DNA of 64,000 nucleotides from Synechococcus sp. PCC 7502. GTDB taxonomy: Bacteria; Cyanobacteriota; Cyanobacteriia; Pseudanabaenales; Pseudanabaenaceae. The notes under the pieces were generated by a model. The model saw only the letters and a program-made list of their open reading frames with translations, ran no database searches and was not told the DNA's origin. Both the position numbers and the translations under genes were made by a program. Every line of letters starts with the position of its first letter. Position 1 is the stretch's first letter. Below, piece after piece: positions 1,513-42,751 of the stretch. The stretch covers positions 186,001 to 250,000 of the forward strand of contig NC_019702.1 in the NCBI RefSeq assembly GCF_000317085.1. Direction: 5' to 3'.

Positions 1513-2627
1513 TCATCAAATCTCTGGTCATCATACTTTTGACCATCAAGTTGCTCCTTATCAAATCTCTGAGTATCAAATTGTGGAAAACCATAGGAGT
1601 TATCCTCAGTTTCTATTTTTCTTTTACGCTCAAAATGATCAAAAATAATCCGACCGACTCCTGCCAATGGTGGTGCAATCAAAGCCCCAACCACACCTAA
1701 TAATTCCGCACCCACAATAATTGACAGCAATAACTCAAAGGGATCAAGATTTAGGTATGGACCCACTAGCCAAGGTTGTAAGATCCAAGCTTCAATTTGC
1801 TGCAATAGAAAGGAAATACCAATCACTAAACCAACTTTAACAAGTCCTAAACTCCATGCGGCAATTACCATAGGAATTAGCCCTAAAATTGGTCCCACAA
1901 ATGGAATTAAATTAGCAACTGCAACTAATAAACTTAATCCTCCCGCAAATTCCACGCCCACAAATATTAAAGCTAAGTAAGTGCAGAACCCTAAAAGTGC
2001 AGATGTGCCAATTCTCCCTAGAACGTATGCTCCTAAGCAGCGATTAATAGGAGGCATGAGTACATATACTTCACTTCTAACTTTTTCTGAAAAAGGTCTT
2101 AGTACTCTGCGGGTTAACTCCTTGGAATTAATTACCATATAACCCGTAATTAACATGGTCAGTAAAATAATTCCCAACGTATTAATTAAGCCAAAGGTAA
2201 AGCCAACGGTTTGATTGGCAATTTCTCTGCCTAGATTTTGGATTTGATCAAGTACTGTACTTGATCGCAAAAACTCTTGAATTTGTTGGGCATTGACATT
2301 CAGGAAAGGAATATTCGTTACATTAATTTGTGAAACTAAATTGGGAACTTGAGTTAAAAACTGCCCTAATTCAACAATCAACTGTGGCGCAGGGGCAATA
2401 GTTAATAAAATAATTAATAGTAAGGCAGAGTAAATAACTACGACTCCTAAGCCTCTTCTAATCTTATATTTCTCCATTTGCTCTAGGAGCGGAGTAATTG
2501 CTGAGGCAAAAAATAAACTTACTAGTAATAACTGAATTGTTTGTTTTAATCGCCATACCAGATAAATTCCAAGTAAAGCGATCGCCCCACGTTGAAGATA
2601 TTTCCAGACTTCTTCCTTACTAACCAT
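1509..2627 (-). CDS. AI-2E family (PerM-like) membrane protein
   Basis: This 372-residue polytopic inner-membrane protein has the layout of the AI-2E transporter/PerM superfamily: a pair of N-terminal hydrophobic segments (residues about 15-65), a soluble middle part with amphipathic helices (about 85-150), then a cluster of hydrophobic segments with the conserved signature NLIPFVGPILG (about 235-245) and PWLVGPYLNLDP (about 285-297). Members include autoinducer-2 exporters and Na+/H+ antiporters; the substrate of this one cannot be inferred. The last 25 or so residues form an odd charged tail of repeated F/Y-D-x-Q-R-F-D units that lies outside the family domain. It is separated by about 40 bases from the upstream minus-strand PstS-like gene. 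Confidence 0.85.
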   Translation of the reverse strand: MVSKEEVWKYLQRGAIALLGIYLVWRLKQTIQLLLVSLFFASAITPLLEQMEKYKIRRGLGVVVIYSALLLIILLTIAPAPQLIVELGQFLTQVPNLVSQINVTNIPFLNVNAQQIQEFLRSSTVLDQIQNLGREIANQTVGFTFGLINTLGIILLTMLITGYMVINSKELTRRVLRPFSEKVRSEVYVLMPPINRCLGAYVLGRIGTSALLGFCTYLALIFVGVEFAGGLSLLVAVANLIPFVGPILGLIPMVIAAWSLGLVKVGLVIGISFLLQQIEAWILQPWLVGPYLNLDPFELLLSIIVGAELLGVVGALIAPPLAGVGRIIFDHFERKRKIETEDNSYGFPQFDTQRFDKEQLDGQKYDDQRFDD

Positions 2628-2666
2628 GAATTAATCACTTAAAAACGTGAGTACTACTAGTAAAAC

Positions 2667-3659
2667 TTACAAAGGGATAAACCCAACCTGTCGTACAATT
2701 TCCTGTCCAACCTGAGATAAAGCCAAATCAATAAATTCTTTTACAACTGGACTGGTCTGCTTTTTAGCCACTAATAAAACCACTCGACTAATTGGATAAA
2801 CCCCAGTTTTGACCGCATTAACATCCGTTGGAGCAACGCCATCAATCGGGACAATTCTTACTATCTCTTGATTTACAGCCTGCTGCACGGTGCTATAGCC
2901 GATCCCATTTTTGCCTAAAGCCCGTAACATTGGCGTGGTTTCATCATGGGGCAAAGTTGTAAAATCTTTACTATCTGGAGCAAAATCACCACCAAGCAAT
3001 ACCGCATCTTTAAAGAATGTTCGAGTGCCACTTTCTGTAGCCCTGTTAATAACTTTAATGGGTTGCTTAGCTCCTCCCACCTGTTCCCAGTTGGTGATAG
3101 TGCCTTGAAATATTCCGCGCAATTGATTTAAGGTCAATCCACCTTTGTAGGGGTTATCTATACCCACGACTACTGCCAAGGCATCCCGTGCCACTGGTAC
3201 CCCCAGCAACCCAGATTGAATTTCTTCAGCTTTTAGGGGACGAGAACAAGCAGCGATGTTAACAATGCCTTGCATCAGGTTTTTTAGCCCCGCATTTGTA
3301 CCATTAGGTCGACCATCGGGAACTCCAAAGGTGGAAGGAATATTTAGGTTAACCTGAGCATAAGCCAATTGTAAGCGTTTGATCAAAGCCACCATAGTCA
3401 CACTCCCGTCCATATTTAAAACCTGTGGATTCGGTAAAGATGTATCCAGTGCTGCTGTGGTTGAATTTGGGGGAGCGGGAGTCGGGTCTTTAGAAACTGG
3501 AGGAACTGGATTGACGGTGCTAGCTGGATTCGGTGTAATTACCTGCTGCAAACCATTGGGATTATTTCTGGTAAAGAACCAATAACCTCCACCTGCCAAG
3601 CCTGCGGTGATCAGAACAGTTAGCCCCAGTACTAAGCCTTCGTTTCCACTTCTTGCCAT
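2667..3659 (-). CDS. PstS-like phosphate-family substrate-binding protein, membrane anchored
   Basis: The 330-residue protein starts with a single hydrophobic segment (residues about 8-28), followed by a Pro/Thr/Ser-rich linker (about 35-70) and then a type-2 periplasmic binding domain of the PBP_like_2/PstS class. Visible signatures are the TNWEQVGG stretch after a GIFQGTITNW motif and RATESGTRTFF, the anion-loop region typical of PstS-like proteins. No phosphate permease or ATPase genes (pstCAB) flank it, so it may be a stand-alone phosphate-binding or regulatory protein rather than the feeder of a Pst transporter. The lack of a clear cleavage site suggests it stays tethered to the inner membrane. 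Domain call is strong; ligand is inferred. Confidence 0.8.
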   Translation of the reverse strand: MARSGNEGLVLGLTVLITAGLAGGGYWFFTRNNPNGLQQVITPNPASTVNPVPPVSKDPTPAPPNSTTAALDTSLPNPQVLNMDGSVTMVALIKRLQLAYAQVNLNIPSTFGVPDGRPNGTNAGLKNLMQGIVNIAACSRPLKAEEIQSGLLGVPVARDALAVVVGIDNPYKGGLTLNQLRGIFQGTITNWEQVGGAKQPIKVINRATESGTRTFFKDAVLLGGDFAPDSKDFTTLPHDETTPMLRALGKNGIGYSTVQQAVNQEIVRIVPIDGVAPTDVNAVKTGVYPISRVVLLVAKKQTSPVVKEFIDLALSQVGQEIVRQVGFIPL

Positions 3660-40040: not shown

Positions 40041-41759
40041 ATGAATAACCAAGTGCTACCACGACAATCTCATAATGCTCTAGCTGTAATCATGATTAGT
40101 GGTGCAGTTGATCTAGAACCCAGACTGCAAACAGATCGCCAATGGACTGTGAGCCTAATGGAACGTGACCTTAATTTTATGAAGGAACAATGTGCCTATT
40201 ACGAAGGACAGGTTCTACAATCTACGGAGTTGGGGGTGATTGCCAATTTTAGTAATGCCGTAGAAGCATTAAAGTGTGCATTATCCATTCAAAAAACTCT
40301 CATTACGGCAGCTAGTACTATGCAGTCCCGTGATGTACTGGGACATTCCATTGGGATTCATCAAGGGGATTTAGTTGCTGATGGGGGCAAGGTTGGTGGT
40401 AATGGAATCACGATCGCTAATCAAATTCAACTAGATGCCAATTGGGGAACGATTCATATCTCTGAAAGTATTTATCACCAAGTCAATAAGGTGATGGAGC
40501 TAATCATTAACTATGTAGGAGAACGATACCTGCAAAAAATTTATCAGGTTATTCCCAAAGGTTTTACAAGTTCACTACCAGTTATTACCCCTTCCTATGC
40601 TATTGATATTGACTCTATCCCAATTAATGATGAATTTAGTAACAAGTTTATTGAACCCGATTGGTATTTATTTGATCAAGTCGTTAATTCCTTAGAAAGC
40701 AATCATAATATTTTAGAAATCAAGCGATTACTTTTATATATTTGCCTAAATAAATGGGAAAGTGATCAACTAAAACTGGAAAAGTTAAACCTGAAGGGAT
40801 TAGTTCAAGAATTAATTGAACCACTAGCAACCCTTGCCCAATTAAAATCACTAATTGCTTTAATTACTGATGTTACTCAAACCGTTGATAGTGAGTATGG
40901 GGTAATTGGCAAAACTATTATCCAAGCAATTAATAAACTGTACGCCCGTTATCAATCCGAGCCTCAAGATATTTATGATGAGGTAATCCAGTCTTGGGAA
41001 GATGTGGACAAGGACACAACCCGAATCAAAAGACTAATATTTTATTTATGCAGGTGTGACTTACCTAGCTTTTCTACTGAAGAATTAACTCTAAAAGCTG
41101 CCATTCAAAAACTCCAAGGGCTATACCCAAGTTTGGAAACTCTCAGACCGAGGATGAAACAGGCGATCGCCGTAATTCGTAAACCCGAATACTCAGATAT
41201 TGTCGATGTGGTAATTGATGACTTGAGTGCGATTTTCCCCGCCCGCTCTTTATCTTTAAGTCCAACTTTAACCCCAACAACTGCTACGGTATCAACAAAT
41301 GCTGATTACGCTGACTTTACTCCGCTAATTGAGCCAGTTCATGCGATCAGCTTTAACCTAAATCAAAACCTAGATCAAGCAGACAAAAGTGCCATTTCTA
41401 AGACGGAAAATAAAACTGAACAATCAATTGATGCAGAGATTGCTGATCTGGAGTTATTTGATTTACGTTTGGAGATTATTAAATACCTCAGTCCCCTCCG
41501 TGCCAAAATATTGATATTTTCTGCCTTAAATAATGAAGTGGCGGAATCAACTAATGAAAGTGTCTCGGCAATTAGAACCTATGAGCTTGATGACTTACTT
41601 CGGGATTTGTTTTATGCCTTTAAAAGTTCAGAAACACTAGAAATTCAACTTAAAAATACAGCCCGACAATTTCGAGATGTGGATGAATATGAGCAGGCGG
41701 TTAGTGTAATTATGAATGCTATGCTCACTGTCTATAAAAAATTAGGAATTGGAGTTTAA
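40041..41759 (+). CDS. Degenerate class III cyclase-fold protein with three C-terminal helical repeats
   Basis: The 572-residue protein is unusual. Residues about 12-180 align by eye with the catalytic fold of adenylate/guanylate cyclases: an opening strand (ALAVIMISGAVDL), the GQVLQSTELGVIANFSNAVEALKCALSIQ helix, SIGIHQGDLV and GITIANQIQ. However, the metal-binding Asp of the first strand is replaced (ISG where cyclases have a D-(I/V)-x-G/F pattern), so catalysis is unlikely. After it come three similar helical segments near residues 227-305, 329-402 and 475-565, each opening with a hydrophobic helix (IKRLLLYIC, IKRLIFYLC, RLEIIKYLS) followed by an L-x-L--L---L pattern. The pentapeptide repeat gene starts 2 bases after its stop. 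Probably a scaffold or sensor; function unknown. Confidence 0.62.
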   Translation: MNNQVLPRQSHNALAVIMISGAVDLEPRLQTDRQWTVSLMERDLNFMKEQCAYYEGQVLQSTELGVIANFSNAVEALKCALSIQKTLITAASTMQSRDVLGHSIGIHQGDLVADGGKVGGNGITIANQIQLDANWGTIHISESIYHQVNKVMELIINYVGERYLQKIYQVIPKGFTSSLPVITPSYAIDIDSIPINDEFSNKFIEPDWYLFDQVVNSLESNHNILEIKRLLLYICLNKWESDQLKLEKLNLKGLVQELIEPLATLAQLKSLIALITDVTQTVDSEYGVIGKTIIQAINKLYARYQSEPQDIYDEVIQSWEDVDKDTTRIKRLIFYLCRCDLPSFSTEELTLKAAIQKLQGLYPSLETLRPRMKQAIAVIRKPEYSDIVDVVIDDLSAIFPARSLSLSPTLTPTTATVSTNADYADFTPLIEPVHAISFNLNQNLDQADKSAISKTENKTEQSIDAEIADLELFDLRLEIIKYLSPLRAKILIFSALNNEVAESTNESVSAIRTYELDDLLRDLFYAFKSSETLEIQLKNTARQFRDVDEYEQAVSVIMNAMLTVYKKLGIGV

Positions 41760-41761
41760 CC

Positions 41762-42751
41762 ATGAATCCTGATGAGCTACTGAAACGATATACCGCCGGT
41801 GAAGTAAACTTTGCCGAAATTAATCTGCGGGGTGCTAATTTATCTGGGGCAGACTTAATTGGGGTGAACCTATCCAAAGCTAATCTCCATAGTGCTAGTT
41901 TAGTATTTGCTTATTTGACTCGTACTAATTTGCGATCGGCAATTTTAGTGGGGGCAAAATTAGGTGGTGCCAATCTCAATCAGGCGCATCTAAGTGAATC
42001 TAATCTCAGTGATGCGGATTTGCATGGAGCAAGTTTGGCGGGTGCCACTATGGTTAATGCCAATGCCGCTTTAGCTAATTTTTTGGATGCAAATCTGATT
42101 GATGCGGATATGCGGGATATTAGTCTGCGGGGAGCCAATCTAGCTGGAGCCTGTCTGCGAGGTGCCAATTTACGCAAAGAATTAAAGCGATCAGCAAACT
42201 TGACCGGTGCCTGTTTACATAAAGCTGATTTACGGGGGGCAAACTTTACGGGGGCTGATTTATCGGGGGCAGACTTGCGATCAGCAAATTTGACTGAGGC
42301 AACTTTTACGGGAGTTAATTTATCTGGGGCTGATTTAACCAAGGCAATTATGAAGGGCTGTTTTTTAACGGAAGCGAATTTGACAGGAGCAAACTTAACA
42401 GGTGTTAATTTAACAAATGCCAAGATTGAAAGAGCTAACCTCACGGATGTGCAAATGGAAGATGCCAATCTTATGGGGGTAATTATGCCCGATACTAAGC
42501 TCACTAGGGCAAACATGGTGAATGTCAACTTAATGACGGCAAAGCTTTCTCGTAGTGATTTTAGTCGGGTTAATTTGCAACGGGCTAACTTAATTGAAGC
42601 AAATCTGACCGAGGCTTACTTGGCAAGAACAAATCTCTTTGGTGCGGATTTAACCGATGCCATCTTAACTAAAGCCGAGCTTAGTAGTGCGAATTTAGCG
42701 GGGGCAATAATGAAAGGTGCAACTATGCCCGACGGGACAATTCATAGCTAA
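41762..42751 (+). CDS. Pentapeptide repeat protein
   Basis: The 329-residue protein is made almost entirely of A(D/N)LXX pentapeptide repeats, about 55 units, from residue 15 to the end, which fold into a right-handed quadrilateral beta-helix. A short charged break (KELKRS, near residue 143) interrupts the array. The N-terminal MNPDELLKRYTAGEVNFAEI is the usual cap helix of cyanobacterial pentapeptide proteins. No signal peptide or membrane segment is seen, so it is cytosolic. Translation is likely coupled to the preceding cyclase-fold gene (2-base gap). Its function is unknown. Confidence 0.9.
   Translation: MNPDELLKRYTAGEVNFAEINLRGANLSGADLIGVNLSKANLHSASLVFAYLTRTNLRSAILVGAKLGGANLNQAHLSESNLSDADLHGASLAGATMVNANAALANFLDANLIDADMRDISLRGANLAGACLRGANLRKELKRSANLTGACLHKADLRGANFTGADLSGADLRSANLTEATFTGVNLSGADLTKAIMKGCFLTEANLTGANLTGVNLTNAKIERANLTDVQMEDANLMGVIMPDTKLTRANMVNVNLMTAKLSRSDFSRVNLQRANLIEANLTEAYLARTNLFGADLTDAILTKAELSSANLAGAIMKGATMPDGTIHS

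Follow-up and report, generated by a model that had tools for sequence, protein, structure and literature searches.

A pseudo-cyclase and its pentapeptide-repeat neighbour as a putative local form of a widespread cyanobacterial module

Two adjoining genes of Synechococcus sp. PCC 7502 appear, from sequence comparison, to be the local form of a widespread cyanobacterial module that combines an all-helical protein family, referred to here as REP/CTD, with a pentapeptide-repeat protein (PRP) whose length hardly varies (about 330 aa). We consider it probable that the REP/CTD protein serves the PRP as a dedicated partner and docks optional signalling modules, the module in the window (the whole stretch of 64,000 nucleotides that was analysed) being a structural or dimerising pseudo-cyclase. 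More tentatively, the pair may belong to a phylum-wide hub made of an invariant pentapeptide beta-helix and a new helical adaptor family with swappable input enzymes, the enzyme having been silenced and its fold kept in this lineage.

PRPs are most abundant in cyanobacteria and the biochemical function of most of them is unknown (PMC8145042). Among the genomes that we sampled, the PRP orthologue never occurs without its dedicated partner, which provides a directly testable partner for this PRP, and the pairing with REP/CTD connects it with signalling modules of the cAMP and Ser/Thr-kinase types. The partnership may be undescribed so far within the open-access literature, where we found no description of the REP/CTD and PRP pair, most subscription journals lying outside the scope of that survey.

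Gene layout and domain architecture

Both genes are located on one contig (G000:C3) of the 3.58 Mb genome; positions below are those of the window. Gene 1 (40041..41759, + strand) is an open reading frame encoding a 572-aa protein with the domain order CYC-REP-REP-CTD, an order also found in the homologues of relatives. Gene 2 (41762..42751, + strand) encodes a 329-aa PRP with an N-terminal helical cap MNPDELLKRYTAGEVNF. According to the original prediction gene 2 begins 2 bases after gene 1, and the coordinates confirm this gap: gene 1 ends with TAA at 41757-41759, exactly 2 bases (CC) follow, and the ATG of gene 2 starts at 41762. Because a putative ribosome-binding site of gene 2, GGAG (41751..41754, + strand), precedes this second ATG by 7 nt and lies inside the end of gene 1, the layout is consistent with translational coupling of the two genes. 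The flanking genes on the same strand are presumably purM, separated by a 44-bp gap, and dapF, both named from their protein sequences by recognition. Promoter and terminator predictions at the locus were at chance level only.

The N-terminal domain of gene 1, CYC (40074..40550, + strand; residues 12-170), is assigned to a degenerate class III nucleotidyl cyclase fold by sequence search, structural model and Foldseek. The helical part that had been predicted to follow this fold takes shape in the model as two REP domains, a disordered linker and the CTD, in keeping with a family organisation of one or more repeats of ~96 aa followed by a distinct C-terminal domain. REP1 (40659..40952, + strand; residues 207-304) is an all-helical repeat of ~96 aa and of the RIKKL..C.N.WEND type, and REP2 (40971..41240, + strand; residues 311-400) is a second, diverged copy scoring 46.2 bits. 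They are followed by a low-confidence and probably disordered linker (41244..41423, + strand; residues 402-461; pLDDT about 30) and by the CTD itself (41436..41756, + strand; residues 466-572), a helical domain characterized by LFDLRLEI.KY.(N/S)PLRAKIL.FS. In profile searches REP matched no Pfam family, and neither the REP nor the CTD profile found a significant sequence match in the PDB.

The CTD is the best conserved segment of gene 1. Compared to the only other genome of the same genus, identity reaches 90 % for gene 2, 75 % for the CTD, 55 % for CYC and 46-57 % for REP, neighbouring genes being 75-87 % identical in the same two-genome comparison. The conserved core of the pair appears to be the CTD together with the PRP.

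Gene 2 had been described as a nearly pure pentapeptide protein, and the Pfam Pentapeptide match indeed extends over almost its full length (E=1.3e-84). Gene 2 shows the hallmarks of a PRP, namely at least 8 contiguous A(D/N)LXX repeats and a beta-helix, the latter present in the model of an orthologue, and is an orthologue of the PRP of ~330 aa that adjoins REP/CTD genes throughout Cyanobacteria. Among NCBIfam models its best score is to HetL, where 214.1 lies below the cut-off of 260 used for HetL orthologues. It exceeds the curated cut-off of the Alr5209 family (NF052603; 174.8 against 125), a model far shorter than gene 2 (113 positions), so that this match probably reflects the repeats rather than orthology; no REP/CTD partner of an Alr5209 family PRP was found in the literature surveyed.

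Pairing and co-occurrence across Cyanobacteria

The earlier proposal of a two-protein module holds across the phylum, both in the pairing of the genes and in their co-occurrence; restriction of the pairing to a single strain, set beforehand as the outcome that would speak against it, was not what we found. In a first set of loci, 62 of the 71 non-kinase REP/CTD genes are adjoined by a PRP gene on the same strand, and in a second, named set a PRP adjoins every REP/CTD gene for which enough contig is available. The adjoining PRP mostly measures 329-336 aa and the gap ranges from -101 to 328 bp. The PRP is usually downstream; several genera belonging to the window's family have it upstream (PRP first at L079, L134, L135, L137-L140, L144, L145 and L148); adjacency has therefore outlived rearrangement. 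In one genus with reversed order, a second PRP gene of ~190 aa is found on the opposite strand, about 2.5 kb from the pair (L079:410-997, L134:771-1358, L144:754-1335, L148:1046-1618).

We then considered presence and absence in 194 genomes sampled from the phylum, with the PRP scored as present at E<=1e-50 (52 genomes) and REP matches in 57. Both are present in 52 genomes, REP only in 5, PRP only in 0 and neither in 137. The corresponding Fisher log10 p of -41 ignores shared descent and has descriptive value only. Three of the REP-only genomes (G077, G170, G208) contain just short or stop-containing REP fragments and look like cases in which both genes have decayed jointly; another (G056) carries a PRP of 307 aa next to its CTD gene (L117), and the last (G117) belongs to the same genus. 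Some genomes of genera g39, g41, g45 and g67 keep both genes and others neither, and these mixed states argue for repeated joint losses of the pair.

The absence of the PRP is specific, since genomes without REP hold up to 79 other PRP candidates and yet do not have this orthologue. The co-occurrence also exceeds mere linkage, because both genes are still present where they are not adjacent (G008, G042, G108, G139, G192, G226). Some genomes, G182 for example, have more REP/CTD genes than PRPs. Scanning one genome per species with a CTD-only alignment as query retrieved 149 CTD relatives; among the matches listed, 80 of 80 are cyanobacterial. Two further searches were negative. Among the plasmid matches to gene 1 that were listed, coverage is at most 52 % at 21-26 % identity, and most are cyclase genes of rhizobia rather than copies of the module. 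PADLOC gave no meaningful match to a defence system (13.9 bits).

The N-terminus of REP/CTD proteins is variable: most commonly there is no additional domain, and otherwise there is an adenylyl cyclase that retains the full set of six catalytic residues or a Ser/Thr kinase, the latter recognised by the HRDIKP.N motif only. Most cyclase-bearing relatives keep the cyclase intact. Since most relatives of the REP/CTD and PRP pair are without a cyclase and some have a kinase, the cyclase appears to be an optional add-on and not the essence of the module. Six of the seven kinase-type loci (L083, L097, L133, L136, L146, L149, L150) have no adjoining PRP, the exception being L133, with a PRP directly downstream. 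In genome G004 a second PRP orthologue shares a contig with the kinase.

The degenerate cyclase domain of gene 1

The class III cyclase fold attributed to gene 1 on first reading is predicted by AlphaFold2 and backed by Foldseek, and the counter-prediction of no such fold failed. At the sequence level CYC matches PDB 3mr7 (E=1.7e-10) and Ma1120 (~2e-5) with phmmer, and the Pfam Guanylate_cyc score of 12.8 bits is under the family cut-off of 21.9. Residues 12-163 are modelled with pLDDT mostly of 75-92, and Foldseek matches the modelled domain to Ma1120, Rv1900c and 3mr7, the target TM-scores being about 0.8-0.87.

Residues 12-163 thus share their fold with class III cyclases such as Ma1120, Rv1900c, 3mr7 and CyaC, which differ from gene 1 in their catalytic residues. 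Alignment to relatives places the canonical D, K, D, D, N and R at G21, Q60, L64, K117, T124 and Q128 of CYC, and 0 of 6 are kept. The loss of the metal-binding Asp of the first strand, noticed originally, corresponds to G21 and extends to the other five canonical positions, in agreement with the proposal of a pseudo-cyclase: the fold appears real and the domain is predicted to be catalytically dead. Class III cyclases act as dimers whose active sites draw residues from both partners. As sites of this kind use residues of both partners and none of the six is kept, CYC, judged by its residues, could not complete an active site in either dimer role. In the lineage of the window the module would work without cAMP synthesis.

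The further suggestion that the protein is a nucleotide-binding sensor, signalling through a PRP scaffold, fared less well and we regard it as very unlikely. Pseudo-enzymes can retain ligand binding, and the cyclase fold is kept with dN well below dS; however, both metal-binding Asp, the substrate-specifying Lys and Asp and the transition-state Asn and Arg are all replaced, leaving no canonical metal, base or transition-state contact. Furthermore, the cyclase domain is absent from most relatives of the pair, and the divergence of CYC far outpaces that of the CTD and of the PRP.

The residues seem to have been lost gradually. CYC-REP-CTD relatives tabulated from other families carry DKDDNR, with all 6 kept, and the window's family includes DRSDNR (4 kept), QRDNNR (3), GKGEVR (2) and GQLKTQ (0). 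In the tree the four CYC domains of the window's family form one clade (support 96/86), with a stem of 2.1 changes per site leading to the window's genus. Because residue loss is graded within one clade and the full set is found elsewhere, an active ancestral cyclase was probably silenced stepwise within this family. The family thus presents successive stages of cyclase inactivation, with 6, 4, 3, 2 and 0 of 6 residues kept, in which the remaining module is constant.

Stepwise loss, the accelerated stem branch to the genus and the presence of close relatives having REP/CTD without CYC (L134, L139 and others) speak for a dying relic without a role, only REP/CTD and the PRP mattering in this lineage. 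We find this quite unlikely, given that CYC is well predicted and that the two species of the genus both keep it in frame, open and intact, with a dN of 0.34 against a dS of 1.86 between them (dN/dS about 0.18, dS being near saturation). Though dS is near saturation, an open, well predicted domain with dN well below dS is not merely rotting, and CYC has probably been retained as a folded, dimerising or structural domain.

Dimerisation could also take the form of a dominant-negative subunit, the pseudo-cyclase pairing with an active cyclase and damping cAMP. Class III cyclases function as dimers and the genome has nine Guanylate_cyc matches, one of them a close paralogue that keeps all six residues, in a 1378-aa frame; yet no link ties this locus to that of gene 1, and such a role leaves the PRP partner and the CYC-less relatives unexplained, making it highly improbable in our estimation. 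The paralogue (L002:1192-3495, near 1471945 of G000:C3) lies beside response-regulator-like genes. Elsewhere in the same genome, two cyclase-like genes have N-termini resembling 2Fe-2S ferredoxins and altered catalytic positions (L034:1345-2391, L040:1324-2352). At L038 two consecutive genes (1423-2394 and 2413-3423), each with an FHA-like N-terminus and a cyclase, are apparently a tandem duplication.

Proposed complex and relation to known systems

A hint of a possible physical complex comes from a pair from a Nostoc MAG (L206), which we read through its stop codon as a single chain and modelled with AlphaFold2 using 54 alignment rows, about half of them paired. The 648-aa fusion, of which about 330 residues are PRP and 121 are disordered, reached a pTM of 0.67, a global score that is indirect with respect to the interface. 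As this exceeds the value of about 0.52 roughly estimated for undocked chains, in which only the 330-aa PRP would be well placed, the model suggests that the REP/CTD protein and the PRP of L206 may be docked.

We favour, as stated above, a REP/CTD protein that would bind the PRP physically, most likely via the CTD. It would act as an adaptor bringing an N-terminal adenylyl cyclase, a Ser/Thr kinase or nothing to the PRP beta-helix, and the variable modules would report to or act on the PRP. By analogy with HetL and HetR, the beta-helix would contact a target, and a scaffold role for the PRP is plausible.

PRP effectors such as HetL acting on HetR, and MfpA or Qnr acting on gyrase, serve as models for a different arrangement. 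In it the PRP would act as an effector, inhibiting or protecting a target, and the REP/CTD protein would be its dedicated inhibitor or releaser. The strict co-occurrence suits a controller and its effector, and HetL of Nostoc PCC 7120 (3DU1), the best PDB match of the PRP in the fused model, is likewise a cyanobacterial PRP that acts by direct contact with its partner (PMC7476756). Nevertheless, gene 2 is nearly neutral (net charge -1), unlike an acidic DNA mimic, and kinase and cyclase attachments suit an adaptor at least equally, so we judge the antagonist arrangement unlikely. HetL differs from the present case in being shorter (40 pentapeptides) than gene 2, and its partner HetR is a transcription factor, unlike gene 1 with its cyclase fold and helical part.

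The adaptor that we favour also recalls other known systems. SpkB-type cyanobacterial Ser/Thr kinases unite a kinase and C-terminal pentapeptides in one chain (PMC2176072), while here two chains are connected via the REP/CTD family and only some relatives have a kinase. Effector-adaptor systems of multicellular bacteria (EAD, TRADD-N) combine a constant helical module with variable domains that sometimes include pentapeptides (PMC7159879, PMC8195603); in contrast, REP is without a Pfam match and the partner is always the same PRP instead of a varying set. A module of co-occurring PRP and kinase has been described (PMC5862535) that may be related to the REP/CTD pair.

Acidic residues followed by TCQ[FLIV], and often then by [IF].PP, form the C-terminal tail of many plain, cyclase and kinase REP/CTD proteins, for example at L206:3542-4426 (residue 284), L129:3825-5765 and L146:4544-6901; gene 1 of the window does not carry this tail motif. 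As a candidate for a wider docking motif, D/E-rich TCQ[FLIV] was rejected: searched as a DNA pattern in 14 genomes, it retrieved mainly REP/CTD proteins and one unrelated ORF.
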